Positions 26,690-63,346 of a stretch of 64,000 nucleotides of DNA are shown in pieces. Under the pieces are notes generated by a model. It was given only the letters and a program-made list of their open reading frames with translations, searched no databases and had not been told where the DNA came from. The stretch comes from Branchiostoma floridae. Its lineage: Eukaryota > Chordata > Leptocardii > Amphioxiformes > Branchiostomatidae. Location: assembly GCF_000003815.2 (NCBI RefSeq), contig NC_049989.1, positions 6,407,836-6,471,835 of the forward strand. Reading direction: 5' to 3'. Both the position numbers and the translations under genes were made by a program. Numbering within the stretch: position 1 is the stretch's first letter; each line of letters opens with the position of its first letter.

Positions 26690-27190
26690 ATTTCCTCATA
26701 TATAAGGCATCGATTAACACACTCATATATGTTCAGCTTTACACACACATATATATCTGGCAGGACAAACACATATATGTTCGTCTGCACACATACACAT
26801 AACACATCGAAGCACACGCTCTTATATGTTTCTCTATACACATGCACATATACATGGTAGGACACACTCATATATCTTCAGCATTACACACACACATATA
26901 TATGGTAGGACAAGCACATATATGTTTGTCTGCACACATACACATACACATCGAAGCACACGCTCTTATATGTTTCTCTATACTCATACACATATACATG
27001 GTAGGACACCAATATATATTTCAGCTTTAAAAGTACACACTCATTTGTTTCAGCTTCACACACACACTTGCGCACACAGACACACCTATATATATAGTAT
27101 GTCACGTTCTTATATGTTTCGCTTTACACACACACACATAATTACGCACACAGACACCCACTCACATATTTACATACATGATAACTCAGT
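26690..27190. repeat. CACATATATG spaced array (S1 start), copy a
   Basis: CACATATATG/CATATACATG motifs about every 48 bases, with GGTAGGACA and CATCGAAGCACACGCTCTTA spacers. No real frame; the His/Thr-rich frames are products of the repeat. Confidence 0.8.
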
Positions 27191-27928
27191 CATAAATTTC
27201 TGAAAGTTATTACTGTCACAAGCTATGGTCATGATTCTTTTAAAGTAGAAAGCTCTTACTAGTCGTAAAGAATTGGCGTCGGCTTGGGTCCCCTGTTTTG
27301 TTTGAGAAATTGAAGGGTAGAACTCCAGAAATGTTTGACAAATCTTCATAACTATTTGTATGTTCATAGCTTAAGTGATGATGGATATAAGCTCACGCTA
27401 CATATGCAAAGAATGACCTACTTTGCATAATTGTGTGACTTTAGAACATGAAGAGAGTGAGATTAACTTTAATTGGAAACTTTGCAAATAAAGACATCAT
27501 CTGCAAAATTGGTGTGTGCTGCAAATCATATATACGTATATGTATCATATAATTATACGTTTGGGCTGCAAACACTCCAACCGTTTGTCTTTTGTCGTCA
27601 CCAATGATCATAGAAAATATCGTCATGTTAGTCCAATGTTAAAGTATGCGGCAACGGTGTGGTGAGGACCAAGGTTAGCCTCTACCAGGCTTCGTAGATC
27701 GGTGGTCTAAATGTAGCAATTGGACAAATAGAGTCATACTACACTAGGGGAGTCAGCCGGCCAGAACAATCATTTCCTCCGTAGGTCGCAAGCTGTTCCC
27801 TAGCTGGCTGTACTTCTCTGGCCGGTTTGCCTATATTTGTTCCATCCTATGGTTTTCCGGCCAGCGACCTATGGAGTCTGGTATAGATTAGACTGTGGTA
27901 CCAAACTTGCATCAATGTTAAATGTTAA

Positions 27929-28314
27929 GCGGCGTCACATATATCTGTGCTACAAAACATAGACATATGTGCGTGGTGAAGCACATATATATATATGTTT
28001 TGCAGGCAGATGTATGTGTAACTGGTGCAGCACATATGTCTGCCACAGGACACAGATATATATGCGCTTCAGCACACACATATGTCTGCGTGCAAAACAG
28101 ATATATATGTGTGATTCACCACACATATATGTGTGCCGTTGAAAACAGATATATCTGTGCTCCACTAAGCACATATGTCTGTCTTCGACGGCACACATAT
28201 ATGTGTGTGGTGAATCATATATATATCTGAATTTGACGGCACACATATGTGTGTATAAAGTAACACATATATCTGTTCTTTGCAGCACACATATATGTGT
28301 AGAAAGTCATATAT
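27929..28314 (+). repeat. ATATGTG hairpin array 1
   Basis: The short form of the array (about 385 bp). It starts AAGCGGCGTCACATATATCT and breaks off at TATATAAAAAGGAGTCGA. Confidence 0.85.
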
Positions 28315-28599
28315 AAAAAGGAGTCGAACCCAATAATCCAGGATCTAGAGTTAGCTTTTGACTAGTTTTAGAGTACAGTAGACACTTGTGATTTTGTATC
28401 TTACACCTTTCTTAATCTGTTATGTTAATTGTAATTATCCCACGGGCAAGAACTTGCAATTAACTTGTCAATATATAAATCTCTGTTATTTTTGGAACAT
28501 GGTTATGTGATTTAAAAATATATCTGATAATATACTATCACCGATATGTTCTTTAATGCACTGGCTCGCCCATCCATTCCAGCCGATTGGGAGTCGCAC

Positions 28600-28789
28600 T
28601 ACTCTCCAAGTAGAGGTTAGGCTCCAGCTGTTTTTTTAACGTTTTTTGGTCGTTTTTTTATCGGACTCTCTATTTGTATCTTGTTAGGGTTTGACAACAC
28701 AAGATACAATACAAATTAGAAAGCCCGATAAAAGCTATTTAAAAAAAGGTAAAAAAAAAACAGCCGGAGCCTAACCTCTGCTTGGAGAG
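28600..28789 (+). repeat. Foldback 1
   Basis: Arms pair from TACTCTCCAAGTAGAGG to CCTCTGCTTGGAGAG. The downstream tail module is shortened (the arm joins directly to GCCTGCAAGTTC). Confidence 0.85.
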
Positions 28790-28849
28790 GCCTGCAAGTT
28801 CACGGGAATATTCAACTTGCTCCTGCTAGCCTTTACTAAGGTGCCGTTT

Positions 28850-29343
28850 GCATATATTATATCTGTGCTACAACACACAGATATATGTAAAGCGGCGTCA
28901 CATATATCTATGCTACAAAACACAGACATATGCGCGTGGTGAAGCACATATATATCTGTTTTGCACGCAGATATATGTGTGACGGGTGCAGTACATATAT
29001 GTCTGCCACAGGACACAGATATATATGTGCTTCCGCACACACATATGTCTGCGTGCAAAACAGATATATATGTGTAATTCACCACACATATATGTGTGCC
29101 GTTGAAAACAGATATATATGTGCTCCACTAAGCACATATGTCTGTCTTCGACGGCAAACATATATGTGTGTGGTGAATCACATATATATCTGTCTTTGAC
29201 GGCACACATAATGTGTATAGAGTCACATATATATATATATCTGTTCTTTACAGCACACATATATGTGTAGAAAATCATATATATTTGTAATTTTTGGAAC
29301 ATGTATATGTGATTTACACACATATATATCTGATAATATACTA
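28850..29343 (+). repeat. ATATGTG hairpin array 2
   Basis: Full-length array; has the variants GACGGGTGCAG and GGCAAACATATATG, shared with arrays 6 and 18. Confidence 0.85.
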
Positions 29344-29405
29344 CTACCAATCTGTTTTTTAATGCTCTGGCTCACCCATCCATTTCAGCCGATTGGGAGT
29401 CGCAC

Positions 29406-29607
29406 TACTCTCCTAGCAGAGGTTAGGATCCGGCTGTTTTTAAAAACTTTTTTCAGTCGATTTTTATCGGGCTTTCTATTTTGTAGTGTATCTTGCATTG
29501 TTGTTAGGGTTTGACAACACAAGATACAATACAAAATAGAGATCCCGATAAAGATGACTAAAAAAAATGTTAAAAAACAGCCGGAGCCTAACACTGCTTG
29601 GAGAGCA
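29406..29607 (+). repeat. Foldback 2
   Basis: Subfamily with TCCTAGCAGAGG / CACTGCTTGGAGAGCAG arms, followed by the TTTG tail module near 29655. Confidence 0.85.
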
Positions 29608-30199
29608 GAGACGCACGCGGTCGCGCTGAATCTAGGACCCAATTGTGTGTGTGGTTGTTTGTTTGTTTGTTTGTTTGTTTGAATCATTGTTTATTCATAA
29701 AAGCTCAAATCGGCCTACAGGCCTGCAAGTTCGCGAGAATATTCAACTCGCTCCCGCTAGCCTTTACCAGGCTCCTAGGATAGGTAATCAGTAGTCTAAT
29801 AGTAGAAATTGGACAAATAGAGTTAATCTTTAGTACGCTGGAGGAGTCGGCCGGCCAAAGGAGTTATTTCCTCACCTGATTTTTAAAAAGAGATTAAATT
29901 CTACCTGTCTGGAGCTGAAAGAAAAATACAGCTGGCTCGCTAAAGCAGTTGCGGTCTAAATAAAAACAAAATTTCTGTATTCTAGCCTTGTATCAAATCA
30001 GACTTAATCTTCAAGTTTCAAATCTTCGATAAACATTGAGGAAATTTTTTTAATGAAAATCCAATCCTCTGGCAACATTCGTTTTTCGCCTCAGCCTGGC
30101 CTTCAGTTACGTGGTGACCTCTTATGACCTCCTCTGTCTGGCCAAACTGCTAGTAATATGTACTTTTGTCGTGTCTCAATAAAGACTATATATCGTTTG

Positions 30200-30680
30200 C
30201 ATATATCTGTGCTACAACACACAGATAAATGTTATGCGGCGTCACATATATCTGTGCTACAAAACATAGACATATGTGCGTGGTGAAGCACATATATATC
30301 TGTTTTGAACGCAGATATATGTGTGACTGGTGCAGCACATATATGTCTGCCACATGACATAGATATATATGTGCTTCCGCACACACATATGTCTGCGTGC
30401 AAAACAGATATATGTGTGTAATTCACCACACATATATGTGTGCCGTTGAAAACAGATATATGTGTTCCACTAAGCACATATGTCTGTCTTCGACGGCACA
30501 CATATATGTGCGTGGTGAGTCACATATATATCTGTCTTTGACGGCACACATTTGTGTGTATAAAGTAACACATATATCTGTTCTTTGCAGCACACATATA
30601 TGTGTGGAAAATCATATATATGTATATCTGTTATTTTTGGAATATGTTTATGTGATTTCAAATATACATCTGATAATATC
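30200..30680 (+). repeat. ATATGTG hairpin array 3
   Basis: Full-length, with the variant GTTTTGAACGCAG. Confidence 0.85.
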
Positions 30681-30745
30681 CTACCACCAAGCTGTTATTT
30701 AATGCTCTGGCTCGCCCATCCATTTCAGCCGATTGGGAGTCGCAC

Positions 30746-30947
30746 TAATCTCAAGGCAGAGGTTAGGCTATGGCTGTTTTTTTAAACGTTTTTTTAGTCG
30801 TTTTTATCGGACTCTCTATTTTGTATTGTATCTTGTATTGTTAGGGTTTGACAACACAACATACAATATAAAATAGAAAGCCTGATAAAAACTATTTAAA
30901 AAAAGCTAAAAAAACACAGCCGGAGCCTAACCTCTGCTTGGAGAGTA
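30746..30947 (+). repeat. Foldback 3
   Basis: Arms TAATCTCAAGGCAGAGG / CCTCTGCTTGGAGAGTA; central loop TTAGGGTTTGACAACA. Confidence 0.85.
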
Positions 30948-31132
30948 GAGACGCACGCGGTCGCGCTAAATCTAGGACCACACGGGGGAATTGCTTGTGT
31001 GTTTGTTTGTTTCTTTGTTTGTTTGTTTGTTTGAATCATTGTTTATTCATGAAAGCTCAATTCGGCCTGCAAGCCTGCAAGTTCACGGGAATATTCAACT
31101 TGCTCCTGCTAGCCTTTACTAAGGTGTCATTT

Positions 31133-31622
31133 GCATATATTATATCTGTGCTACAACACACAGATATAGATTAAAGCGGCGTCACATATATCTGTGCTAC
31201 AAAACATAGACATATGTGCGTGGTGAAGCACATATATATCTGTTTTGCACGCAGATATATGAGTGACTGGTGCAGCACATATATGTCTGCCACAGGACAC
31301 AGATATATATGTGCTTCCGCACACACACATGTCTGCGTGCAAAACGGATATATATGTGTCATTCACCACACATATATGTGTGCCGTTGAAATCAGATATA
31401 TATATGTGCTCCACTTAGCACATATGTCTGTCTTCGACGGCACACATATATGTGTGTGGTGAATCACATATATATATGTCTTTGACGGCACACATATGTG
31501 TGTATAAAGTAACACATATATCTGTTCTTTGTATCACACATACATGTGAGGAAAATCATATATTTAGATCTATCCATTATTTTTGGAACGTTTATGTGAT
31601 TTCAAATATGTATCTGATAATA
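31133..31622 (+). repeat. ATATGTG hairpin array 4
   Basis: Full-length; variants ATATGAGTGACTGG and CTTTGTATCACACATAC. Confidence 0.85.
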
Positions 31623-31679
31623 TACTACCATCAATCTGTTCTTTAATGCTCTGGCATCTCAACCGATTGGGAGTCGCAC

Positions 31680-31883
31680 TTATCTCCAAGCAGAGGTTAG
31701 GCTCCGGCTGTTTTTAGACGTTTTTTTTTTGTCGTTTTTATCGGACTCTCTATTTTGTATTGTATCTTGTATTGTTAGGATTTGACAACACAAGATACAA
31801 TACAAAATAGAAAGCCCGATAAAAGCAATTAAAAAAAAGCTAAAAAAACACACAGCCGGAGCCTAACCTCTGCTTGGAGAGTA
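31680..31883 (+). repeat. Foldback 4
   Basis: Right arm reaches GGAGAGTAG, 20 bases before the 31903-32002 join. Confidence 0.85.
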
Positions 31884-31902
31884 GAGGGAGTATTAGACTC
31901 CT

Positions 31903-32002
31903 NNNNNNNNNNNNNNNNNNNNNNNNNNNNNNNNNNNNNNNNNNNNNNNNNNNNNNNNNNNNNNNNNNNNNNNNNNNNNNNNNNNNNNNNNNNNNNNNNN
32001 NN
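31903..32002. other. Assembly gap, 100 N
   Basis: Exactly 100 N, at the point where copy b of the segmental repeat begins. Confidence 0.99.
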
Positions 32003-32049
32003 TATTGGGGGCCAAGTGTTGCAAAATTACTTACATATAAAGACAAGGA

Positions 32050-32640
32050 TGTCCTCATATATAAGGCATCGATTAACACACTCATATATGTTCAGCTTTA
32101 CACACACATATATATCTGGTAGGACAAACACATATATGTTCAGCTTTACACACACATATATATCTGGTAGGACAAACACATATATGTTCAGCTTTACACA
32201 CACATATATATCTGGTAGGACAAACACATATATGTTCAGCTTTACACATACACATAACACATCGAAGCACACGCTCTTATATGTTTCTCTATACACATGC
32301 ACATATACATGGTAGGACACACTCATATATCTTCACCATTACACACACACATATATATGGTAGGACAAGCACATATATGTTCGTCTGCACACATACACAT
32401 CGAAGCACACGCTCTTATATGTTTCTCTATACTCATACACATATACATGGTAGGACACCAATATATATTTCAGCTTTAAAATTACACACTCATTTGTTTC
32501 AGCTTCACACACACACTTGCGCACACAGACACACATATATATAGTATGTCACGTTCTTATATGTTTCGCTTTACACACACACACATAATTACGCACACAG
32601 ACCCACTCACATATTTACATACATGATAACTCAGTCATAA
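32050..32640. repeat. CACATATATG spaced array, copy b, expanded
   Basis: As at 26690, but the 48-bp unit TTCAGCTTTACACACACATA... is present about four times (32090-32245) rather than once or twice. Confidence 0.85.
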
Positions 32641-33375
32641 ATTTCTGAAAATTATTACTGTCACAAGCTATGGTCATGATTCTTTTAAAGTAGAAAGCTC
32701 TTACTAGTCGTAAAGAATTGCCGTCGGCTTAGGTCCCCTGTTTTGTTTGAGAAATTGAAGGGTAGAACTCCAGAAATGTTTGACAAATCTTCACAACTAT
32801 TTGTATGTTCATAGTTTAAGTGACGGTGGATATAAGCTCACGCTACATATGCAAAGAATGATCTACTTTGCATAATTGTGTGACTTTAGAACATGAAGAG
32901 AGTGAGATTAACTTTAATTGGAAACTTTGCAAATAAAGACATCATCTGCAAAATTGGTGTGTGCTGCAAATCATATATACGTATATGTATCATATAATTA
33001 TACGTTTGGGCTGCAAACACTCCAACCGTTTGTCTTTTGTCGTCACCAATGATCATAGAAAATATCGTCATGTTAGTCCAATGTTAAAGTATGCGGCAAC
33101 GGTGTGGTGAGGACCAAGGTTAGCCTCTACCAGCGGCTTCGTAGATCGGTGGTCTAAATGTAGCAATTGGACAAATAGAGTATTACTACACTAGGGGAGT
33201 CAGCCGGCCAGAACAATCATTCCCTCCGTAGGTCGCAAGCTGTTCCCTAGCCGGCTGTACTTCTCTGGCCGGTTTACCTATATTTGTTCCATCCTATGGT
33301 TTTCCGGCCAGCGACCTATGGAGTCTGGTATAGACTAGACTGTGGTACCAAACTTGCATCAATGTTAAATGTTAA

Positions 33376-33760
33376 GCGGCGTCACATATATCTGTGCTAC
33401 AAAACATAGACATATGTGCGTGGTGAAGCACATATATATATGTTTTGCAGGCAGATGTATGTGTAACTGGTGCAGCACATATGTCTGCCACAGGACACAG
33501 ATATATATGCGCTTCAGCACACACATATGTCTGCGTGCAAAACAGATATATATGTGTGATTCACCACACATATATGTGTGCCGTTGAAAACAGATATATA
33601 TGCACTCCACTAAGCACATATGTCTGTCTTCGACGGCACACATACATGTGTGTGGTGAATCATACATATATATGAATTTGACGGCACACATATGTGTGTA
33701 TAAAGTAACACATATATCTGTTCTTTGCAGCACACATATATGTGTGGAAAGTCATATATA
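33376..33760 (+). repeat. ATATGTG hairpin array 5
   Basis: Short form, the counterpart of array 1, with TATATGCACTCC in one loop. Confidence 0.85.
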
Positions 33761-39463: not shown

Positions 39464-40562
39464 TACTCTCCAAGCAGAGGTTAGGCTCCGCTGTTTTTTT
39501 AACGCTTTTCAGTGGTTTTTTATCGGACTCTTTATTTTGTATTGTATCTTGTATTGTTAGGGTTTGACAACACAAGATACAATACAAATTAGAAAGGCCG
39601 ACATTTGCTTAGGAGCAAATACAGCATATTGCAATCCATCTTCATCCTTGAAAAAATCCCAAAATTCAACAATTTGAAGTAATAGTACTGTGGGCACTTG
39701 TCCTACACACCTTCATGCCGAGTTTTTGGTCATTTGGTTTCATTACAAGGGCATATATGACAAAAATATACATTTTTATACAAAAATGGCTAAAAATCCC
39801 AAAATAACTCATTTTATAAGTGCTCTATGAAGAAAGTGTTGATGGGGTCCTGTTGTCATATGTCCAATGCACCTCTATACTAAATTTCAGGCCATTTGGT
39901 TTACATACAAGGGTAAAGGGGCCAAAAATATACATTTTTAGTCAAAAATGACTGAAAACCCCAAAATAACTAATTTCTGAAGTGATCTATGAAGAAAGTG
40001 TCAATGGGGTCCTGTGAGCATATGTTCAATGCACCTCTGTACCAAATTTCAGGTCATTTGGTTTCTATACAAGGTCATAGGAGCAATAAATATACATTTT
40101 TAGTCAAAAATGGCCAAAAACCCTAAAATAACTAATTTTTGAAGTGATCTATGAAGAAAGTGTTGATGGTTTTCTGTGCTCATATGTCTAATGCACCTCT
40201 GTACCAAATTTCAGGGCATTAGCTTGTAATACCAGGGCACAGGGGCCCAAAATATACATATTTTGTCTAAAAATGACCAAAAACCCTAAATATCATAAAT
40301 TCTAAGGCCTCTATCAAGAAAGTGAAAAAAATGCCTGGGGGTATTTGCTATTTCTACCACCCTGCCAAATTTCAGCTCATTTGGCCAAAAAATGAAAAAA
40401 ATTAATCCCATTTGAAGATTTGACACGAGAAGAGACAAAGGAAAAACAGTATATTGCATCCATACTATGTATGGATTGCAATATAAATAGAAAGTCCGAT
40501 TAAAACTATTTAAAAAAAGCTAAAAAAAAAACAGCCGGAGCCTAACCTCTGCTTGGAGAGTA
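39464..40562 (+). repeat. Foldback 11, split by an insertion
   Basis: Left arm and loop 39464-39601, right arm 40485-40562. The insertion lies within the right arm after GAAAGGCCGA. Confidence 0.8.
39602..40484 (+). repeat. Insertion of about four 162-bp tandem repeats
   Basis: AGAAAGTG-type landmarks recur at 39831, 39993, 40155 and 40317. Each unit has ATACATTTTTAGTCAAAAAT, a CCAAAATAACTAATTT-like part and ACCAAATTTCAGGTCATTTG. The outer ends carry inverted ATATTGCAATCCAT. The flanks repeat an imperfect AAAT(T)AGAAAGNCCGA. Not present in copy c (56220). Confidence 0.85.
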
Positions 40563-40732: not shown

Positions 40733-41220
40733 CCATATATTATATCTGTGCTACAACACACAGATATATGTGATGCGGCGTCACATATATCTGTGCTACA
40801 AAACATAGACATATGTGCGTGGGGAAGCACATATATATCTGTTTTGCACGCAGATATATGTGTGACTGGTGCAGCACATATATGTCTGCCACAGGACACA
40901 GATATATATGTGCTTCCGCACACATATATGTCTGCGTGCAAAACAGATATATATGTGTAATTCACCACTCATATATGTGTGCCGTTGAAAACAGATATAT
41001 ATGTGCTCCACTAAGCACATATGGCTGTCTTCGACGGCACACATATATATGTGTGGTGAATCACATACATATCTGTCTTTGGCGGCACACATATGTGTAT
41101 ATAGAGTAACATATATCTTTGTTCTTTACAGCACATATATATGTATGGAAAATCATATATATATATCTGCTATTTTCGGGACATGTAAATGTGAATTACA
41201 CATATATATCTGATAATATA
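40733..41220 (+). repeat. ATATGTG hairpin array 11
   Basis: Arm 40828-40864 is the near-perfect complement of 40919-40957 (27 paired bases, then a 2-base offset, then 10 more); a second inverted pair is at 40979-41042. Confidence 0.88.
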
Positions 41221-41284
41221 CTACCACCAATCTGTTTTTTAATGCTCTTGCTAATGATCCATTTCAGCCGACTGGGAGTCGCAC

Positions 41285-41484
41285 TACTCTCCAAGCAGAG
41301 GTTAGGCTCTGGCTGTTTTTTTTTAAACGTTTTTGGTCGTTTTTTATCGGGCTTTCTATTGTGTATTGTATCTTTTATTGTTAGGGTTTGACAACACAAG
41401 ATAAAATATACAAAATAGAAAGCCCGATAAAAACGATTAAGAAAACGCTACAGACAGCCGAGCCTAACCTCTGCTTGGAGAATA
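41285..41484 (+). repeat. Foldback 12
   Basis: Arms with CTCTGGCTG / CAGCCGAGCC; loop TTAGGGTTTGACAACA. Confidence 0.85.
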
Positions 41485-41531
41485 GAGACGCACGCGGTCG
41501 CGCTAAATCTTGGACCCACGGGGAATTCTTT

Positions 41532-42372: not shown

Positions 42373-42677
42373 AATATGTGATGTGGAGTCAAATATATGT
42401 TGCTCCAAACACAGATATATATCTGATGTGGCGTCACATATATCTGTGCTACAAACACAGATATATGTGTGATGTGGCGTCACATATATATGTGCCCCAA
42501 ACACATATATATGTGTGATGTGGCGTCACATATATATGTGCCCCAAACACAGATATATATGTGATGCGGCGTCACATATATGTGTGCTCCAAACACAGAT
42601 ATATGTGTGATGCGGCGCCACATATATATGTGCTACAAACACAGATATATGTGTGGTTCGGTGTCACACATGTATGT
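42373..42677 (+). repeat. ATATGTG array 13, simple 60-bp form
   Basis: Tandem GATGTGGCGTCACATATAT...CACAGATATATGTGT units, about five. Ends at the 958-bp element. Confidence 0.85.
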
Positions 42678-43635
42678 CACAGTAGAGATTGCGATTCAGA
42701 ACAATCGCCGATTGTCCTAGGAGAGATCGCGATCGGAGTTTGTCCTGGCTAGGACAAACTGCGCATGCGATCGGGATCTGTCCCAGGACAATCTGCGATT
42801 CTGTTAGTACAGATTGCAATATCAATCGGGATCTGCCCTAGGATAAACTCCGATACAAACTCAAATGATGCTAAGTTAAAAGAAACAGCAATACTTTGAT
42901 AAACCATGACTACTGAAGGATACCAGACTTGTGTCTGTACTGAATAGGTGTGGAATTGTAAGTAATATCTTGAAACTGTGATTGATATTTGGGCATCTGT
43001 ATGATGCCTTTACAGTTGTAATTGTTCTTCCAAATTTGTGAAATGATTCAGTATATGTTTACTGACTATTGAAATGTACTAAATCGTTGTGAAACTGTAA
43101 TATCTTGACACCTTAAAATTTGCATTCTGACACATTGTTTGATCACCTTTTGTCATCTTTCACATATCATTGGATGTTTGCCACTACAGTACTTTATCAG
43201 AAATTATTTTATCAGAAAACATACTCGCATGTAATTTATCCGTTACAAATTACAAACTAATTCACCTAGAACAGTTAGTAATTCTGAATGCAGGTATGCT
43301 TAACACTGGTTGCAATGTTAGTTGTGCAGTGATTCATTACATTTTTATCTAATCAGAATTTCTCCGAGTAGAATTGGAGATTGTCCTACTAGAATCGCTG
43401 TAAACTTTTGTCTTATGACAGATCCCGATCGCAGTCTGTTTCCTTTATCTTCATCATTTGAGTTTGGATCGGAGTTTCTCCTAGGTCAGATCCCGATTGC
43501 AATCTGTACTAATAGAATCACCGATTGTCCTAGGACAGATCCCAGTCGCAGTTTGTCCTAGCCAGGACAAACTGCGATCGCGATCTCGGCTCCTAGGACA
43601 ATCGGTGATTATTCTGAATCGCAATCTCTACTGTG
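42678..43635. mobile_element. 958-bp long-TIR element (CACAGTAG ends), copy 1
   Basis: Ends CACAGTAGAGATTGCGATTC are inverted repeats that continue for nearly 200 bases with small gaps, and hold internal palindromes of TCCTAGGACA type. The core has no transposase. It shares core blocks (GAAACAGCAAT, GAAACTGTGATTGATATT) with the 53828 element, although the termini differ. Confidence 0.85.
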
Positions 43636-43926
43636 ACATATGTGACGCCGCATCACACATATATCTGTGTTTTGAGCACATATATATATGTGAAGCCGCA
43701 TCGCAAATATATTTGTGTTTTTAGCACATATATATGTTAAACCACATCACACATATATCTGTGGCTGTAGCACATATATATGTGACGCTCACATCACACA
43801 TATATCTGTGTTTGTAGCACAGACATATGTGACGCCGCATCACACATATATCTGTGTTTGCAGCACATATATATGTGACGCCGCATCACACATATATCTG
43901 TGTTTTGTAGCACAGATATATGTAAG
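43636..43926 (-). repeat. ATATGTG array 14, inverted
   Basis: GACGCCGCATCACACATATA units: the reverse complement of array 13, so arrays 13 and 14 form inverted flanks around the 958-bp element. Confidence 0.85.
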
Positions 43927-47003: not shown

Positions 47004-47103
47004 NNNNNNNNNNNNNNNNNNNNNNNNNNNNNNNNNNNNNNNNNNNNNNNNNNNNNNNNNNNNNNNNNNNNNNNNNNNNNNNNNNNNNNNNNNNNNNNNN
47101 NNN
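47004..47103. other. Assembly gap, 100 N
   Basis: Exactly 100 N, between copies b and c of the 15-kb unit. Confidence 0.99.
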
Positions 47104-47159
47104 CGCGGCCTATTGGGGGCCAAGTGTTGCAAAATTACTTACATATAAAGACAAGGATT

Positions 47160-47650
47160 TCCTCATATATAAGGCATCGATTAACACACTCATATGTCTT
47201 CAGCTTTACACACACATATATATCTGGCAGGACAAACACATATATGTTCGTCTGCACACATACACATAACACATCGAAGCACACGCTCTTATATGTTTCT
47301 CTATACACATGCACATATACATGGTAGGACACACTCATATATCTTCAGCATTACACACACACATATATATGGTAGGACAAGCACATATATGTTCGTCTGC
47401 ACACATACACATACACATCGAAGCACACGCTCTTATATGTTTCTCTATACTCATACACATATACATGGTAGGACACCAGTATATATTTCAGCTTTAAAAG
47501 TACACACTCATTTGTTTCAGCTTCACACACACACTTGCGCACACAGACACACCTATATATATAGTATGTCACGTTCTTATATGTTCGCTTACACACACAC
47601 ACATAATTACGCACACAGACACCCACTCACATATTTACATGCATGATAAC
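47160..47650. repeat. CACATATATG spaced array, copy c
   Basis: As at 26690, unexpanded; nearly base-for-base equal to copy a. Confidence 0.8.
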
Positions 47651-53827: not shown

Positions 53828-55657
53828 TCACAGGGGAGATTGGAATCCAGGGGGATTCGGAATCCTCCTAGGGGAGATTGGAATTCCAATCTCCCCTACG
53901 GGAGATCAGAATTCCAATCTCCCCTATGAGGATTCTGGATCCCCCTATGGGAGATCGGAATTCTAATCTCCCCTATGTGAGATTGGAATTCTAATTTCCC
54001 ATAGGGGAACCCCGATCCAATCTCAAATCATGCTAAGATGTAGGAAACAGCAATCCTGTTTTGATAAACAATTGATTTTATTTAGCATTAATGCAAACCT
54101 TCTAACTCAAGCCTACTTGTGTCACTTCTACAATGTTAACTTCACCGAAGACTACCACACTAGAGTCACTTCTGCAACTTTACTCAATGCAGGTCCACTC
54201 AATTATCTGCTCTATCACACTGCATACCGGATTGAATGAGATGGAGATTGGTAAAGTTTAATCGCGTTCTCACAACATTGAAAACCACATTGAAGTTATA
54301 GTAGAGTTTTTCTGATGACCTGACGAATGCAGCCCTGACGTGGCTGAGCTCCCTGGTGGGGGGTTCTGGTTTGAGTCACATGAGGTTGTTCAAGGCCGCT
54401 AATTAACTAAAGTGATCTGCATTCACTTGCTTCGATTGCTACCTCACTAGTGTCACTTCTACAATCAAGATACCATACTGGTCGTCTCCTTCTTTTGTGT
54501 CATCACTACTGGTGTCACTACCACTACACCAAGGCAACCACACTATCGTATAGAATATAGCATCACTTTGGCAAGAGTATATTCAACCTTACCACATTTT
54601 TTAGTGTCTTTCCTAGAACTACACTCAAGGATGTTACACTATTGTCACTTTTACAATTATACTGAAGGATACCAAACTTGTGTCACTTCTACAACGTTAA
54701 CTACACTAAAGTCTGACTAGTGAAATGTACTGATCTGAATAGGTGTGAAACTGTAACATCTTGAAACTGTGATTGATATTTTGGCATTTTGGCACTTTGA
54801 TCACTTTTCAGTTGTTATTGTTCTTCCAAAGTTGCGAAATGATTCTATGTCAATGTTAACTACACTGAAGTCTGACTGTTGAAATGTACTCATGATCACT
54901 AGCTGTTAATTTTGCCAAATTTTGAACTGCAGGCTTTGATTGGAAAATGACCTCTAAAGTATGGAGTTGATTGGAAAATGACCTCTAAAGTATGGAGTCG
55001 ATTGGAAAATGACCTCTAAAGTATGGAGTCACTAACTTATAATGGCATATGCAAATGTGCTAATTTATATATTGGTGACATTTGCATACCATTATATGAT
55101 TATGATTTAGTGACTCAAATGATTCAGTCTACTTTCCAAAACAATTTCATCCATTCTGATTATTGGTAACATCAAAGATTGTCCTGGTAGAATTCTGGAT
55201 TCTCCTCTATTACTAAATGCTTGAAAATGTGATGTTTACTGAGCTATAGTATAGGATAAGGTGCTATTGTACACTATAGAGAAGTATTCTTAACCTTTAA
55301 TTGTCAGCAAAAATGATAAGTGTTAAATATAAATTATAAAGCATAAGATATGATGATTTATTCTTAGAAATAATTATAAATCCTTTGTTGCATTGTTTGA
55401 AACTTTGAATCCACTCATGGTACATTCAAAGATTATCCTGGTAGAATTCCAATCTCTCCTAGGAGAGATTGGAATTCCAGTAGAACTCCAAAAGAATTCT
55501 AATCTCCCCTAGGGGAGATTGGAATTCCAATCTCCCCTAGGAGGATTCCAGATTCTCCTAGGGGAGATTGGAATTCTGATCTCCCCTAGGGGAGATTGGA
55601 ATTCCAATCTCCCCTAGGAGGATTCCGAATCCCCCTGGATTCCAATCTCCCCTGTGA
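53828..55657. mobile_element. 1.83-kb long-TIR element (TCACAGGGG ends) with 10-bp target duplication
   Basis: Ends TCACAGGGGAGATTGGAATC are inverted repeats for at least 140 bases, built from GGGGAGATTGGAATTCC / CCAATCTCCCC palindromes. CATATATATG flanks both sides (53818-53827, 55658-55667). The interior has no long frame, so it is non-autonomous. Three tandem copies of ATTGGAAAATGACCTCTAAA lie at 54938-55030. Core blocks match the 42678 element. Confidence 0.92.
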
Positions 55658-56304: not shown

Positions 56305-56479
56305 ACAGACGCACGCGGTCGCGCTAAATCTAGGACCACACGGGGGAATTGCTTGTGTGTACGTTTTTTTCTTTGTTTGAAAGATTGTTTATTCATTAAA
56401 GCTCAAATCGGCCTGCAGGCCTGCAAGTTCACGGGAATATTCAACTTGCTTCTGCTAGCCTTTACTAAGCTGTCGTTTC

Positions 56480-56697
56480 CATATATCATATCTGTGCTAC
56501 AACACACAGATATATGTGATGCGGCGTCACATATATCTGTGCTACAAAACTCAGACATATGTGCGTGGTGAAGCACATATATATATGTTTTGCACGCAGA
56601 TATATGTGTGACTGGTGCAGCACATATATGTCTGCCACAGGACACAGATATATATGTGCTTCAGCACACACATATGTATGCGTGCAAAACGGATATA
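56480..56697 (+). repeat. ATATGTG hairpin array 23, truncated
   Basis: Breaks at CAAAACGGATATACGAGGGG, where a mariner-like end begins. It corresponds to array 11. Confidence 0.85.
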
Positions 56698-56865
56698 CGA
56701 GGGGTGATCAAGAAGTTCTCGGCCTCACCAAGAAATAATAAGCACACCTCAAATTTTATGGCACAACTTCATAGTATAGAGCCTTTTATCCATATCCTTC
56801 AAATTTCAAATCAATGCAGTCATTACTTTACAGGCATTCGTTTGTTCCAAATCAGAGGGTAAGTT
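56697..56865 (+). mobile_element. Fragment with a mariner-like terminus
   Basis: TA followed by CGAGGGGTGATCAAGAAGTT resembles mariner inverted-repeat ends. About 165 bases follow, without a coding frame, and then join foldback 19 directly. No second terminus. Confidence 0.4.
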
Positions 56866-57033
56866 GCTGTTTTTTTAACGTTTTTTAGTCGTTTTCATCG
56901 GGCTTTCTATTTTGTATTGTATCTTGTATTGTTAGGGTTTGACAACACAAGATACAATACAAAAAAAATGCCCGATAAAAACGACTAAAAAACGCTAAAA
57001 AACAGCCGGAGCCTAACCTCTGCTTGGAGAGTA
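56866..57033 (+). repeat. Foldback 19, left end truncated
   Basis: Starts inside the left arm at GCTGTTTTTTTAACG; the right arm is complete to GGAGAGTAG. Confidence 0.85.
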
Positions 57034-57227
57034 GAGACGCAGGCGGTTGCGCTGAATCTAGGACCCACGGGGAATTATTTGTGTGTTTGTTTGTTTGTTT
57101 GTTTGTTTGAACCATTTTTTATTCATGAAAGCTCACATCGGCTTGCAGGCCTGCAAGTTCGCGGGAATATTCAACTCGCTCCTGCCTTTACTAGGCTTTT
57201 ACTAGGTATCGTTTACATATATCTGTG

Positions 57228-57537
57228 TAACCTGGAATCCAGTCTACTGCTGGCACGGCCTACCGTAATTAGTGCAGGCTCTCTACGGGGCCAGAGTAGC
57301 TCTCCGCCGCCGGGATAATCATTCACACCCGGTAGGATTCTCACGCGGTTAGACTTTGCCCATGGGGGGTAATTGCTGGCCGGTAATTAACCCCCCCCCC
57401 CCCGGGCAAAGTCTAACCGCGTGAAAATCCTACCTGGTGTGGCCCATTACCCCGGCGGCTGGGAGCTTCCCTGGCCTCGTACAAAACCTGCACTAACTAC
57501 GGTAGGCCGAGCCAGCAGTAGACTGGATTCCAGGTTA
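57228..57537. mobile_element. 310-bp MITE with about 140-bp inverted repeats and 9-bp target duplication
   Basis: Ends TAACCTGGAATCCAGTCTAC on both strands. Inner parts pair through GGGCAAAGTCTAACCGCGTG. ATATCTGTG flanks both sides (57219-57227, 57538-57546). The centre has a C run (57393-57406). No coding frame. Confidence 0.93.
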
Positions 57538-57769
57538 ATATCTGTGCTACAACACACAGATATATGTGAGGCAGCGTCACATATATCTGTGCTACAAAAC
57601 ACAGACATATGTGCGTGGTGAAGCACATATATATCTGTTTTGCACGCAGATATATGTGTGGCTGGTGCAGCACATATATGTCTGCCATGGGAAACAGATA
57701 TATATGTGATTCAGCACACACATATGTCTGCGTCCAAAACGTTTATATGTGTGTAATTCACCACACATA
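57538..57769 (+). repeat. ATATGTG hairpin array 24, truncated
   Basis: Counterpart of array 12, starting at the MITE target duplication. Confidence 0.85.
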
Positions 57770-58065
57770 TTGACGGTAATATTCAACTGTTTTAACCTAC
57801 GTCACTTTAACGTTGTGGATGTTTGAAAATAAAAATAAAGAAATCCCAAACCTGGGTTTCCATGCTCTAGTCACAAGACAAAAGAGTTGTGTATATAAAA
57901 TGAAACAATAAACCTTTAGAAAAAATTGGCCGTATTTTTAGAAAAAAATGCCTGGATGTTTAACAAAATCACAAGAAAAGAAAACTTTAAAGTATTGAAT
58001 TGGTCTCTTTCTATCAAAAGACATAAAATGGGATTTGTTGAGCAAAGAAAAAAACACGTTGTCAC

Positions 58066-58151
58066 AACTGGGATTCGAACTCACATCTGCGGAAACTGAC
58101 TGCGTGTTGAACGCATGCAGAACTTTACCATTAGACCGCTCGGCCATCGTG
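58066..58151 (-). ncRNA. tRNA-like pseudogene or SINE head, copy 2
   Basis: Counterpart of 42056-42146 with several substitutions, same A- and B-box-like blocks. Confidence 0.4.
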
Positions 58152-58377
58152 TAACAGTTGCGCAAGTGAGGTTTAGAAGGGTCCTAAGAACGCCGGTTAA
58201 CTTGACCTACTAAACGATCCATGGAACAAACCGCTTCTATCAAGATTCCTCACAGGAACTTGCGGCCCCTGGATCTAAAGAGTGAAGACAGCTCTACGAC
58301 TGAGCTACGCGAATCGGCCAGCCAGAGGAGATTCAATATCAAGTGTTGCCATTGACATGGGGATCAAAATACAGAAT

Positions 58378-58633
58378 ATGTGATGTGGAGTCATATATAT
58401 GTTGCTCCAAACACAGATATATGTGTGATGTGGCGTCACATATATCTGTGCTCCAAACACAGATATATGTGTGATGTGGCGTCACATATATATGTGCCCC
58501 AAACACAGATATATATGTGATGCGGCGTCACATATATGTGTGCTCCAAACACAGATATATGTGTGATGCGGCGCCACATATATATGTGCTACAAACACAG
58601 ATATATGTGTGGTTCGGTGTCACACATGTATGT
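58378..58633 (+). repeat. ATATGTG array 25, simple form
   Basis: Counterpart of array 13, one unit shorter. Confidence 0.85.
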
Positions 58634-59375
58634 CACAGTAGAGATTGCGATTCAGAACAATCGCCGATTGTCCTAGGAGAGATCGCGATCGGAGTTTGTC
58701 CTGGCTAGGACAAACTGCGCATGCGATCGGGATCTGTCCCAGGACAATTTGCGCTTCTGTTAGTACAGATTGCAATATCAATCGGGATCTGCCCTAGGAC
58801 AAACTCCGATACAAACTCAAATGATGCTAAGTTAAAAGAAACAGCAATACTTTGATAAACCATGACTACTGAAGGATACCAGACTTGTGTCTGTACTGAT
58901 TAGGTGTGGAATTGTAAGTAATATCTTGAAACTGTGATTGATATTTGGGCATCTGTTTGATGCCTTTACAGTTGTAATTCTTCTTCAAAATTTGTGAAAT
59001 GATTCAGTATATGTTTACTGACTATTGAAATGTACTAAATCGTTGTGAAACTGTAATATCTTGACACCTTAAAATTTGCATTCTGACACATTGTTTGATC
59101 ACCTTTTGTCATCTTTCACATATCATTGGATGTTTGCCACTACAGTACTTTATCAGAAATTATTTTATCAGAATACATACTCGCATGTAATTTATCCGTT
59201 ACAAATTACAAACTAATTCACCTAGAACAGTTAGTAACTCTGAATGCAGGTATGCTTAACACTGGTTGCAATGTTAGTTGTGCAGTGATTCATTACATTT
59301 TTATCTAATCAGAATTTCTCCTAGTAGAATTGGAGATTGTCCTACTAGAACAATGTAGGTTCTAGTTCAAGACAG
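58634..59375. mobile_element. 958-bp element, copy 2 (right end in gap)
   Basis: Nearly the same as 42678-43400, cut by the gap at 59376. The last about 20 bases before the gap diverge from copy 1. Confidence 0.85.
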
Positions 59376-59965
59376 NNNNNNNNNNNNNNNNNNNNNNNNN
59401 NNNNNNNNNNNNNNNNNNNNNNNNNNNNNNNNNNNNNNNNNNNNNNNNNNNNNNNNNNNNNNNNNNNNNNNNNNNNNNNNNNNNNNNNNNNNNNNNNNNN
59501 NNNNNNNNNNNNNNNNNNNNNNNNNNNNNNNNNNNNNNNNNNNNNNNNNNNNNNNNNNNNNNNNNNNNNNNNNNNNNNNNNNNNNNNNNNNNNNNNNNNN
59601 NNNNNNNNNNNNNNNNNNNNNNNNNNNNNNNNNNNNNNNNNNNNNNNNNNNNNNNNNNNNNNNNNNNNNNNNNNNNNNNNNNNNNNNNNNNNNNNNNNNN
59701 NNNNNNNNNNNNNNNNNNNNNNNNNNNNNNNNNNNNNNNNNNNNNNNNNNNNNNNNNNNNNNNNNNNNNNNNNNNNNNNNNNNNNNNNNNNNNNNNNNNN
59801 NNNNNNNNNNNNNNNNNNNNNNNNNNNNNNNNNNNNNNNNNNNNNNNNNNNNNNNNNNNNNNNNNNNNNNNNNNNNNNNNNNNNNNNNNNNNNNNNNNNN
59901 NNNNNNNNNNNNNNNNNNNNNNNNNNNNNNNNNNNNNNNNNNNNNNNNNNNNNNNNNNNNNNNNN
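59376..59965. other. Assembly gap, 590 N
   Basis: By comparison with copy b it should hold the right TIR of the 958-bp element and an inverted array like 43636-43926. Confidence 0.95.
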
Positions 59966-60716
59966 TATAGAGGATGAGACGGAAAGCAGAACCTGCTTAT
60001 CGAGGTCTTCTCCTCATGTACATAGACGAAATAAAGACACACATACAGGACTACAAAACGCTAAATAACAAAGGCAAGAGATAATGATAACGACATGAAA
60101 TAAAACAACAAGGAATCAAATAACAAAGTGACGTGTAGCTGGCATACAAACTTAGAAGTAATCAAATAAGGTTATAAATCAACTTAAACAACCTGTCTAT
60201 TGAACACAAGACATAACTACATGAAAATAAACAAGGAATCAAACAACAGAGTGACATATGGCTGATAAACAAACTTAGAAATAATCAAATAAGGTTCAGC
60301 TAAAACGATCTGTCTGTTTGATGAACTTAAATACAACATCAAATAAATGACAGTTTTGAATGGTAGATAGTACTGGGTTTCCCCTGAGTAAGGTTGAACA
60401 TAAAATATTTTCAGTGGTGTGTCTTGGGTCAAATGGTAAGATACCCTGCATGAACATAGTGGTTAAAGATGACAACATATCAAGTCTTGCATCATTGTAT
60501 AGAGGACAGTGTAGAAAATAATGTATAGTTGATTCGTTAGGGTGGCCACATTTACACATAGGACTATTTGCACATTTATGTTGGAACAGGTGGAAATTCA
60601 ACTGACCGAAGTTAAGTCTAAGTCTAGTGAGATGGATTGCTGGGTATCTGGGACCATGCGAGAAGTGAAGGTGGGTAGGAGGTCTATAGAAAAAAGACTC
60701 CAACTCATTTGCTATT
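59966..60716 (-). mobile_element. 5'-truncated non-LTR retrotransposon, copy 2
   Basis: Counterpart of 43990-44760; the frame at 60296-60703 differs by one residue in the zinc knuckle (HYFLHCPLY). The poly(A) end lies in the gap. Confidence 0.75.
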
Positions 60717-60743
60717 TACCTTCGCCGGTTATACGTTGGGTAG

Positions 60744-60747
<4 letters not shown>

Positions 60748-60785
<38 letters not shown>
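60748..60785. repeat. TG microsatellite, copy 2
   Basis: Same as at 44792. Confidence 0.95.
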
Positions 60786-60799
<14 letters not shown>

Positions 60800-61653
60800 C
60801 ATGGATTATATTAATGTTTGGTATGTGGGTAGGTCTTGATCAGACCTAAACACGATTAGATTAGATTTTGGCCCCTCCTAGCGACTTGTTACGGTACTGC
60901 AGTGGAACTTCCGAGTAGAATATCTCGAGTTCTGGACATGATTTTTGAGCGTTAGATAGCTCATCGGGTCGAGAAAAAGTGGTGTAGGTTTGGGCCTCCT
61001 AGTGGTTTGCTTTGGAAATGCATGGACTGGTTTAATGTCAGACTTTAAAAGGGAATAACTCAAGAAATGTTTGACGGATCGTCATGTTTTTTTTTGGTAT
61101 GTAGGTAGCTTACATGATGCTTCATATACTTCAATATCAATTATGGAAATCGGAATCTGATTTGTATATTCAATTAGGAAATTGTCTAAACGCGCTCTGT
61201 TCTACCATAGAACTATTGCAACATGTGACATCTGTAAATGAGGAAGAGAAGAATGTTGAAAGATAGATAATATGCAAATAAGGACATAATTTGCATTATT
61301 TGCATAAAATGCTATAATCCCATTGTGGTAAATAACAAGAATTTCTTACTTATGGCATTTGCAAGTGTACAGGTGAACATCATTGGACATAGATTATGCA
61401 GATGAGGACAACATTTGCATAAACTATCAGGAAATGCGATTAAAGCCTTCTTTCTGAACATAGATTGTGTATGCCTTTTACTTTGGTTGGAGGAGATGAT
61501 CGGCTAATAGAAATTATGCAAATGAGGACCATATTCCCATGATTAATGACAAACAATTAATACACAAGTGTTAAAAAGGTTAAATCATTTTGGCGAAGAC
61601 AGATACATATGTGATTCATCACACACATATATATGTGTGCCTTCAAAAACCAA

Positions 61654-61839
61654 TAGGCTCCGGCGGGTTGTTTTTTTTAGCTTTTTTAAAAATAGTTTTT
61701 ATCGGGCTTTCGATTTTGTATTGTATCTTGTTGTCAAACCCTAGCAATACAAGATACAATACAAAATAGAGAGTCAGATTAAAAAACGACTAAAAAACGT
61801 TAAAAAACAGTCGTAGCCTAACCTCTACTTGGAGAGTAG
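61654..61839 (-). repeat. Foldback 20, inverted orientation
   Basis: Reverse complement of foldback 13 (46271-46460), including its GGCTCCGGCGGGTTG end; followed by TGCGACTCCCAATCGGCTGA. Confidence 0.88.
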
Positions 61840-61904
61840 TGCGACTCCCAATCGGCTGATATGGATGGACGAGCCAGAGCATTAAATACAGATTGGTGGT
61901 AGTA

Positions 61905-62142
61905 TATCATCAGATATATATGTGTAATTCACATATACATGTTCCAAAAATAACAGATACATATGATTTTCCACACATATATGTGCGATACAAAGAACAA
62001 ATATATATGTGACTCTATACACATTATGTGTGCCGTCAAAAGCAAAAATATATGTGTAATTAACCACACACATATCTGTGTGCCGTCGAAGACAGATATA
62101 TTGGCTTAGTGGAGCACATATATATCTGTTTTCAACGGCACA
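61905..62142 (-). repeat. ATATGTG hairpin array 26, inverted, cut by the gap
   Basis: Reverse complement of 46000-46205, then joins GGCTTAGTGGAGCAC, which is also in array 15. Confidence 0.85.
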
Positions 62143-62853
62143 NNNNNNNNNNNNNNNNNNNNNNNNNNNNNNNNNNNNNNNNNNNNNNNNNNNNNNNNNN
62201 NNNNNNNNNNNNNNNNNNNNNNNNNNNNNNNNNNNNNNNNNNNNNNNNNNNNNNNNNNNNNNNNNNNNNNNNNNNNNNNNNNNNNNNNNNNNNNNNNNNN
62301 NNNNNNNNNNNNNNNNNNNNNNNNNNNNNNNNNNNNNNNNNNNNNNNNNNNNNNNNNNNNNNNNNNNNNNNNNNNNNNNNNNNNNNNNNNNNNNNNNNNN
62401 NNNNNNNNNNNNNNNNNNNNNNNNNNNNNNNNNNNNNNNNNNNNNNNNNNNNNNNNNNNNNNNNNNNNNNNNNNNNNNNNNNNNNNNNNNNNNNNNNNNN
62501 NNNNNNNNNNNNNNNNNNNNNNNNNNNNNNNNNNNNNNNNNNNNNNNNNNNNNNNNNNNNNNNNNNNNNNNNNNNNNNNNNNNNNNNNNNNNNNNNNNNN
62601 NNNNNNNNNNNNNNNNNNNNNNNNNNNNNNNNNNNNNNNNNNNNNNNNNNNNNNNNNNNNNNNNNNNNNNNNNNNNNNNNNNNNNNNNNNNNNNNNNNNN
62701 NNNNNNNNNNNNNNNNNNNNNNNNNNNNNNNNNNNNNNNNNNNNNNNNNNNNNNNNNNNNNNNNNNNNNNNNNNNNNNNNNNNNNNNNNNNNNNNNNNNN
62801 NNNNNNNNNNNNNNNNNNNNNNNNNNNNNNNNNNNNNNNNNNNNNNNNNNNNN
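62143..62853. other. Assembly gap, 711 N
   Basis: Lies within an ATATGTG array. Content unknown. Confidence 0.95.
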
Positions 62854-63346
62854 ATATGTCTGTCTTTGACGGCACACATATGTGTGTATAAAGTAACACA
62901 TATATCTTTTAACTCCTGTAACTAGAACAACAGGAGCTAATTGACTCATTTGCATTAACTGTGTCTTAGCCTTGCTATCCTTTGAAATCCAAATTGTCTT
63001 CAGCTTGACTTTGGCTTAGCTTTGTTTTCTTTGGAATCCAAACTGTCTTCAGTCTGAATTGTCTTACAACCTTTCCTATTGGACATCTGAAATTGTCTTC
63101 ATTAATAGTTAGAGTATAAAAGACCTGTTTCTTCCAGATCTCTTCTGTGTCACTGACGAAGGATAGTGGATTCTATCCGAAACGTCTGACCGTTTCAAAA
63201 CCATATTATATTGAGTAACTATTTTTGGCGTAACACATATATCTGTTCTTTGCAGCACACATATATGTGTAGAAAATCATATATATATAAAAATCTGTTA
63301 TTTTTGGAACATGTTTATGTGATTTCAAATATATATCTGATAATAT
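62854..63346 (+). repeat. ATATGTG hairpin array 27, interrupted
   Basis: Array sequence at 62854-62907 and 63230-63346, split by a 322-bp insertion with a 15-bp target duplication. Confidence 0.85.
62908..63229 (+). mobile_element. 322-bp insertion with 15-bp target duplication, TATA box and hammerhead-like motif
   Basis: GTAACACATATATCT is present on both sides (62893-62907 and 63230-63244). Inside are AGTATAAAAG near 63112 and, at 63149-63190, a hammerhead-like order: GTCA, CTGACGA, a 6-bp stem, GAAAC, GTC, TGAC. The 15-bp duplication points to retrotransposition. Penelope-like elements are one known class with hammerhead motifs. No coding frame, so it would be a fragment or non-autonomous unit. 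Confidence 0.7.

Follow-up and report, generated by a model that had tools for sequence, protein, structure and literature searches.

IS3EU/GingerRoot elements have TA..TA termini and target site duplications that are usually 6 bp long, the length also given for Polinton elements (PMC10045372). In Galileo, subterminal repeats have been proposed to act as secondary transposase binding sites (PMC3573991). No terminal inverted repeats (TIRs) were found in Dada-U6 and Dada-U1 (PMC3706591), and the amphioxus 'mirage' minisatellites duplicate intron/exon boundaries (PMC3087553).

The locus described here is a 64,000-nucleotide stretch of the Branchiostoma floridae contig NC_049989.1 (C11), positions 6,407,836 to 6,471,835, referred to as the window. 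It contains arrays of overlapping palindromes (ATATGTG or B-type arrays). These form internal repeats close to the termini of giant DNA transposons, a family with TIRs TATTGGGGGCC...GGCCCCCAATA, target duplications of 6-7 bp and lengths of 6-67 kb. The family appears to resemble IS3EU/GingerRoot at its ends, with TA..TA-type tips (here TATTGG...CCAATA), duplications of 6 or 7 bp and, in a 67-kb copy, an integrase-type match that is a candidate IS3/IS481-type DDE transposase. It differs in that duplications of 7 bp (five pairs) occur about as often as those of 6 bp (four), in measuring 6-67 kb end to end with an integrase-type match in one of 28 pairs, and in its long palindromic subterminal arrays, of which the accessible part of PMC10045372 makes no mention for IS3EU/GingerRoot. 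The presence of TIRs separates it from Dada. Galileo, of the P superfamily, is a much smaller element with a different tip. Like Galileo/Foldback-like elements (PMC3573991), this family has 7-bp target duplications and long inverted ends with internal repetition, here in pairs that span 6-67 kb. The 'mirage' repeats are likewise lancelet minisatellites, but were rejected as a match since no link to intron/exon boundaries of the kind described in PMC3087553 is seen here.

Giant transposons with inverted ends

The B arrays lie just inside 28-bp ends, TATTGGGGGCCAAGTGTTGCAAAATTAC. With up to three mismatches, this 28-mer occurs at 79 places in the genome, against 0 for a reversed control. The ends form 28 facing pairs 6-67 kb apart (limit <100 kb; median 17.2 kb) and one back-to-back pair. 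Target duplications were read at 12 pairs and are exact in nine (four of 6 bp, five of 7 bp), with two pairs showing none and one lying in poly-C; the exact cases are GAAATAC at the C2 copy, GCGTGAC at the C11 67-kb copy and seven of ten further pairs. The ten further pairs all carry TATTGG...CCAATA, as do the C2 and C11 67-kb copies at either end; this count is not independent because the pairs were picked by a search with that end. TIRs of the C11 67-kb copy are 98-100% identical over their first 400 bp, satellite included; arrays lie further in on both sides, and about 34 kb of the enclosed sequence is free of them. Three left ends fall within the window, which also holds D48 subterminal satellites:

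26644..26700, plus strand: giant-element left end (C11:6434479), GTTTGGGGGCCAAGTGTTGCAAAATTAC, with two mismatches at the tip; flank and end match a C9 site at 99.3% identity
32003..32060, plus strand: giant-element left end (C11:6439838), exact TATTGGGGGCCAAGTGTTGCAAAATTAC, directly after assembly gap 31903-32002
47111..47170, plus strand: giant-element left end (C11:6454946), exact, 7 bases after assembly gap 47004-47103
26717..27029, plus strand: D48 subterminal satellite, 48-bp unit made of two 24-bp halves
32076..32478, plus strand: D48 subterminal satellite, six palindrome centres with four 24-bp gaps and one of 146
47208..47475, plus strand: D48 subterminal satellite

The window has six assembly gaps, and gaps directly adjoin element ends. 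The region is rich in duplications, the longest of 95-98% identity, and because they fill the region, the array blocks are not independent. Positions 26325-26924 are 99.3% identical to a C9 site; some window contigs may therefore be out of place.

Across the genome, array patterns occur only on C2, C9, C11, C14 and C19. Two of them, searched with up to three mismatches, are confined to C2, C11 and C14, plus C19 for one of the two, and the end-proximal satellite is present at C9 too. A dispersed small element was ruled out, as a 35-base array pattern has 63 places, of which 51 are on C11, nine on C2, two on C14 and one on C19.

An integrase-type match to PF24764 (rva_4) lies inside the 67-kb copy at C11:6561464 (29.2 bits against a cut-off of 26), and an ORF 4 kb from it on the same strand, also inside the copy, has weak HTH matches below the cut-offs. 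No common transposase was found, the integrase-type match occurring in one of the 28 pairs only, namely the 67-kb copy. One ORF in the interior of this copy looks carboxypeptidase-like but matched 0 Pfam families. A 10-kb stretch of the same interior matches C6 and a dispersed repeat (39 of 5420 candidates scored), and none of the matches listed among those 39 lies in the C2 copy. Polinton/Maverick elements are of a size comparable to the median of 17.2 kb here, and KDZ/Zisupton elements are large TIR elements. The Polinton marker DNA_pol_B_2 (PF03175) has at least 13 genome matches, and none of these 13 lies inside the 28 pairs (compared by eye); the KDZ transposase (PF18758) has at least 12, and none of these 12 lies inside them.

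Composition and spacing of the palindrome arrays

The arrays and associated modules of the window are as follows:

28858..29340, plus strand: B-type array, near-complete, reference copy
Starts of the other 17 near-complete B-type arrays: 27919, 30202, 31141, 33366, 34302, 35683, 36966, 37799, 38918, 40741, 45800, 48384, 49406, 50755, 51682, 52612, 55659
40741..41220, plus strand: B-type array, 'array 11' of the initial annotation
61903..62142, minus strand: partial B-type array, inverted
41285..41484, plus strand: J, a palindromic MITE inserted in the array unit between GAGTCGCAC (41276-41284) and GAGACGCAC (41485-41493)
29608..29873, minus strand: L module, AATAAACAATGATTC then (CAAA)n on the minus strand; by its look, possibly a retroelement 3' tail
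42374..42677, plus strand: C46 palindromic satellite
43638..43923, minus strand: C46 palindromic satellite, inverted
58376..58633, plus strand: C46 palindromic satellite, ten centres with gaps of 22-24 bp

The initial annotation described chains of overlapping palindromes whose half-sites, about 36-40 bp apart, could pair with the neighbour on either side. The arrays are real, with 305 occurrences of CACATATATCTG (up to one mismatch) in the window against 0.87 expected, and both fold and palindrome-centre analyses recover the overlapping chains and their alternative pairings. The spacing was misjudged: palindrome centres are mostly 21-24 bp apart, with some wider gaps (41-76 bp) where one centre is absent, and half-sites of the same orientation are often about 45-48 bp apart. 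Three B arrays examined contain 14-16 centres each, against 0.7-0.9 in shuffles, at a median gap of 23-23.5 bp, whereas control stretches from the unique part of the window have 0 centres (two of 500 bp) and 2 centres (one of 1000 bp). Counting symmetric-loop palindromes alone, a definition too strict for use, gave 4, 1, 2, 0, 3 and 0 centres in six arrays. Two further satellite types built in the same way are mixed in, one with a 46-bp and one with a 48-bp period; ARAGORN calls of tRNA-Cys inside the C46 arrays were taken as false.

The order of spacers is kept, as had been noticed, and this at least partly reflects copying of the units from a single ancestor. A BLAST search with one array returned 33 non-overlapping window matches, 18 of them near-complete arrays, and 22 of the 33 were taken into the alignment of array copies. 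Among the units readable on both sides, most have the same MITE between GAG(T/A)CGCAC duplications, in keeping with that common ancestry. Two readings of J, as TIRs of the array unit and later as a TA-duplicating MITE, were rejected because none of 18 C1 loci with J (8 + 10 loci, two pairs among the eight overlapping) has an array half-site and several J copies have 8-9 bp duplications (by eye; exact 9 bp in L002, L003, L014 and L016).

Half-site cores are not better conserved than spacers, with diversities of 0.072 and 0.075. Pairwise divergence is only slightly lower in the array (7.0%) than in its flanks (8.5% and 10.1%), and constraint on the array is weak at best. These pairwise values replaced a first estimate (array 0.076, flank 0.163) that was probably inflated by misaligned J.

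Over its first 2 kb, a sister element on C4 has only a 29-bp tip in common with the C11 region (96.6%). Its array has 32 palindrome centres against 0.9 in shuffles, which are not independent because the array is one 141-bp unit repeated seven times; a stricter short-loop definition gives four centres against a shuffle maximum of five. The C4 centre gaps are multiples of about 11.75 bp and look similar to those of the window arrays. A member on C1, read over 450 bp, shows a direct 48-bp array and no palindrome lattice. The palindrome array on C4, with unrelated letters at similar spacing, hints that layout, not sequence, may be what matters.

Foldbacks and competing explanations

Two larger foldbacks were delimited in the array at 40741:

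40819..40968, plus strand: foldback H1 (GTGGGGAA ... TTCACCAC)
40961..41060, plus strand: foldback H2 (TTCACCAC ... GTGGTGAA), TTCACCAC common to H1

The long inverted pair that the initial annotation named is present: 40828-40864 matches 40919-40957 read in reverse complement, with a 2-base insertion as the sole difference, and TTCACCAC at 40961 does belong to both larger foldbacks. Of the pair said to bracket the next hairpin, GCCGTTGAAAACAGA stands at 40981, but its partner TGTCTTCGACGGC at 41026 follows GC and not the claimed TC. The folds are very stable: z is -14.9 when one strand is folded as DNA and -14.1 when the other is folded as RNA, values reached by 0 of 200 shuffles in either case. 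This stability, together with a common arm that permits mutually exclusive alternatives, would suit hairpins selected as folded single-stranded DNA or hairpin RNA (such as small-RNA precursors) that switch between foldbacks, a reading that nonetheless appears very improbable. Compensatory changes, which the initial annotation had named as the check on selected structure, were sought in 22 window copies, and two-sided changes were found at 0 of 67 pairs in H1, 1 of 43 in H2 and 1 of 56 in H2'. The single change in H2, reached by 47 of 500 shuffles, speaks for the hairpins; the H1 cells, 25 of them one-sided and 66 broken, speak against. An apparent excess in 51 copies (H1 14 cells against 3.33, H2 4 against 1.26) came largely from two rows that are C46 satellites and supplied 13 of the 18 two-sided cells; with both rows dropped, 49 copies remain and show 3 such cells in H1 (2.24 expected) and 2 in H2 (0.89 expected). 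Two-sided changes are thus in no clear excess over chance, no Rfam family reaches its threshold in the window (0 matches), and selected hairpins are not supported. The arrays are still more than a simple satellite, as first proposed, because they sit in giant TIR transposons with target duplications.

They could also be a passive palindromic minisatellite that grows inside a giant transposon through slippage and template switching at hairpins, without a role and with the 23-24 bp period as a mutational product. This explanation is a serious possibility, albeit a doubtful one: it agrees with the lack of a clear covariation excess, the equality of cores and spacers, near-neutral divergence and the variety of period types (46, 48, 49-51 and 141 bp), but the similar centre gaps of two arrays without detectable common sequence would demand a process with a fixed register, and the unique-window controls also tell against it. 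AT-rich palindromes are fragile, and cruciform breaks at a recombination hotspot, with repair spreading units locally and to other chromosomes, would fit the 82 direct and 72 inverted self-matches of at least 1 kb in the 264-kb C11 region, as well as the modest excess of match ends lying in J (30 of 177 against 10.7%, p 0.011). Arrays, however, show no such excess of long-match ends (54 of 177, with 29% expected, in a test to which exchanges within arrays are invisible), and the C2 and C11 67-kb copies carry TIRs and target duplications; transposition therefore explains their spread, and a hotspot is a highly unlikely explanation.

A proposed role of the arrays in joining distant ends

Judged from sequence, there is a slightly better than even likelihood that these are putative subterminal protein-binding arrays of the giant TIR transposon family. 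Each array would offer a series of inverted half-sites to a DNA-binding protein that belongs to the element and is most probably the transposase or an accessory factor; this protein may coat the ends and help to unite termini tens of kilobases apart. As its specificity changes, the arrays would drift or be exchanged with it while the cleavage tips stay fixed, and the foldbacks would then be a side effect of the inverted arrangement, not a selected feature. A broader proposal, tentative and on present evidence rather unlikely, is that the elements, 6-67 kb long with duplications of 6-7 bp, represent a new group of giant TIR transposons in animals, in which a palindrome lattice of about 23.5 bp, kept while its sequence is replaced, would serve as a sequence-independent architectural code for a co-evolving putative end-binding protein.

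To our knowledge, the joining of transposon ends tens of kilobases apart is poorly understood. A family that swaps its array sequence but keeps the spacing would, if this is true, offer a natural experiment on whether letters or layout are needed at the ends. The giant elements may carry host DNA too. For annotation, the lesson is that a dense local satellite cluster can be the visible end of a far larger mobile unit.

Giant terminal inverted repeat elements as hosts of the arrays

The ATATGTG palindrome arrays are hosted by a family of giant terminal inverted repeat (TIR) transposons, identified by facing pairs of a 28-mer TIR tip and by the duplications that flank them. Seven ends, six of them in the C11 region and the seventh on C2, begin with TATTGGGGGCCAAGTGTTGCAAAATTAC, one of them in slightly altered form. 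The C2 end faces an inverted copy 31.1 kb away, with GAAATAC on both sides, and a C11 pair 67.4 kb apart has GCGTGAC on both sides; the ends of this 67-kb copy are 98–100% identical over the first 400 bp. Genome-wide, the 28-mer occurs at 79 places with up to three mismatches (reversed control, 0). Ends less than 100 kb from a neighbour form 28 facing pairs versus one back-to-back, with a median distance of 17.2 kb, on 15 contigs. Both edges were read in ten further pairs: duplications are exact at 7 bp in three and at 6 bp in four, one pair lies in poly-C, and the edges of the other two show no target duplication. The window covers C11:6407836-6471835; one of the 28 pairs, C11:6454946-6511889, begins inside it and crosses assembly gaps.

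Left ends of the giant element in the window
26644, left end
32003, left end
47111, left end

The window contains six assembly gaps. Because window 26325-26924, comprising flank and element end, matches C9:16027400-16028000 at 99.3% identity, the contig at 25732-31902 may be misplaced or recently duplicated. A C19 locus (L044 1113-1859) is identical to window 62854-63600 at 747 of 747 bases; an assembly gap borders it on one side and its own flank, in inverted copy, on the other, so this copy is probably a misassembly.

The 28 pairs contain none of at least 13 genome matches to DNA polymerase-B (compared by eye) and none of at least 12 to KDZ, evidence against a Polinton or KDZ identity. Dada-U6 and Dada-U1 are described without TIRs (PMC3706591), whereas the elements here have them. 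According to the relevant passages of PMC10045372, IS3EU has TA..TA ends and duplications mostly of 6 bp, and GingerRoot mostly has TA..TA ends with 6 bp; the TA..TA termini of the giant elements fit this description, and their exact duplications are divided between 6 and 7 bp. The main text of a giant-transposon review (PMC6431247) mentions neither IS3EU nor amphioxus nor Branchiostoma, and in the literature searched the IS481EU paper is the only one found to combine at least two of amphioxus, IS3EU, GingerRoot and giant transposon.

Element interiors were read almost only in the C11 67-kb copy, which contains two candidate coding features.

Coding features of the 67-kb element
C11:6561464-6561619 (-), integrase-core match (rva_4, PF24764)
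C11:6565714-6566319 (-), open reading frame with weak HTH matches, all below cut-offs, on the same strand as the rva_4 match

The integrase-core match is one of at least 13 in the genome (29.2 bits; cut-off 26). Since none of the matches listed lies in the other 27 pairs, the integrase-type gene may be cargo rather than the transposase. Elsewhere in the genome the HTH-type frame has a single relative, on C6, at 52% identity. Lying on one strand, the two features could represent a transposase remnant or a captured gene.

Array units follow the order R (a flank), J, L, array. J is an abundant palindromic MITE (TAC TCTCCAAGCAGAGGTTAGGC...) present at many places, with a window copy at 41285-41484; its end motif has 2341 exact occurrences in the 513-Mb genome (reversed control, 0), and several copies show 8–9 bp duplications when read by eye. 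Array half-sites are absent from 18 C1 loci with J (8 plus 10, two pairs among the 8 overlapping). Copies of GAG(T/A)CGCAC bracket J in most array units readable on both sides, suggesting that a single J probably inserted into an ancestral unit and was inherited by the others. L resembles a retroelement 3' tail on the minus strand.

Palindrome spacing and genomic distribution

Sites matching CACATATATCTG with up to one mismatch number 305 in the window, where 0.87 would be expected. The repeat region begins at about 26.6 kb; within the window, no self-match reaching 100 bp involves the first 26 kb. A perfect 18-bp minisatellite TTGCCGTGGTCCGGCAGC (14598-14797; 11.1 copies, 100% match) and a long reading frame encoding a rhodopsin-type GPCR (12667-14064, +; Pfam 7tm_1, E 1.3e-29) lie upstream of the repeats. 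For array 11 (40741-41220, +), the pairing coordinates of the initial annotation are correct to within a few bases. In place of the proposed 36–40 bp half-site spacing, palindrome centres in the arrays mostly lie 21–24 bp apart, with a few longer gaps. A short-loop count (12-bp arms, 6–16 bp loops) finds 14, 16 and 15 centres in three arrays, against shuffle means of 0.7–0.9 and maxima of 3, and none in two control stretches of the window.

The 35-base core of foldback H2 occurs, with up to three mismatches, at 63 places (C11 51, C2 9, C14 2, C19 1; reversed control, 0), and the pattern of foldback H1 at 70, on C11, C2 and C14 only. Two further palindromic satellites, C46 (46-bp period) and D48 (48-bp period), occur at 43 places, only on C11, C2 and C14, and at 25 places on C2, C9, C11 and C14, respectively. 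Palindromes resembling GATCGGAGTTTGTCCTAGGACAAACTCCGATC adjoin C46 arrays at window 42704-42854, 43467-43579 and 58660-58810, another palindromic satellite, GAATTCCAATCTCCCCTAGGGGAGATTG, adjoins arrays at 53831-54008 and 55494-55654, and a 162-bp tandem repeat (3.7 copies, 82%) occupies 39731-40324.

The first 2 kb of a 6.0-kb sister element on C4 have only the 29-bp tip (96.6%) in common with the C11 region. Its array has its own sequence, with a period of 141 bp, 7.1 copies and, in places, a 23-bp sub-period. The short-loop count gives 4 centres there against a shuffle maximum of 5; the C4 palindromes are therefore longer-range. When arms of 14 bp and loops of at most 60 are used, array 11 has 24 centres versus 0.9 in shuffles, a 1000-bp control has 2, and the C4 array has 32 where 10 shuffles average 0.9, the C4 centres being one unit seven times over and not independent. 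Gaps cluster at 10–13, 21–25 and 33–36 bp in both arrays, a likeness judged without a formal test, and in C4 also at 47.5 and 58.5 bp, with some longer ones. Over the 450 bp read, a C1 member lacks a palindrome lattice; its repeat is direct, with a 48-bp period. The general claim of a lattice layout is drawn from two arrays, array 11 and that of C4.

Foldbacks and paired substitutions

The initial annotation proposed that the arrays can form alternative hairpins. A consensus of 22 aligned copies, out of 33 matches, yields the foldbacks H1, H2 and H2', the last a competing structure. The 269-nt core of one copy reaches z -14.9 for one strand folded as DNA and z -14.1 for the opposite strand folded as RNA, in each case unmatched by any of 200 shuffles. 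Such stable, competing folds make alternative foldbacks possible on paper; two-sided changes show no clear excess. Across the 22 copies, H1 has none in 67 pairs (shuffle mean 0.5), H2 one in 43 (mean 0.1; 47 of 500 shuffles as high) and H2' one in 56 (mean 0.9). A larger set of 51 distinct copies, drawn from a 264-kb stretch of C11 and from the C14 locus, gave raised values (H1, 14 cells versus 3.33 expected; H2, 4 versus 1.26), but 13 of the 18 two-sided cells came from two C46 satellite rows. With these dropped, 49 copies give 3 cells versus 2.24 for H1 and 2 versus 0.89 for H2. Paired substitutions thus show no clear excess in the 22- and 49-copy sets, the outcome that the initial annotation named as refuting selected structure; within the reach of this test it counts against such structure, the power being limited because the copies are so similar.

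Function of the arrays

Among the explanations considered, the most likely is that the arrays would be rows of inverted binding sites for a putative element-encoded protein, a reading we hold with barely more than even confidence. Repeats in the ends of Galileo have been proposed as binding sites in the passage of PMC3573991 concerned, and the arrays here may be read in the same way. The near-neutral divergence of the arrays would allow the main rival, a passive minisatellite: over 91 pairs of 14 units, divergence is 7.0% in the array, 8.5% in flank R and 10.1% in the J arm, and diversity is equal in half-site cores (0.072) and spacers (0.075). If the palindromes acted as recombination hotspots, match ends might concentrate in arrays; 54 of 177 do so versus 29% expected, which lends this no support in a test to which exchanges within arrays are invisible.

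What the sequence shows is the element with its duplications and the regular spacing of its palindromes; the binding protein and the function of the array are what we infer. The repeated unit behind the C4 centres and the informal comparison of the gap patterns lower our confidence both in the binding-site reading and in that of the lattice as a code of layout. With considerable doubt, the elements may constitute a new group of giant animal TIR transposons, in which a palindrome register of about 23.5 bp would be kept while the lattice sequence is swapped.
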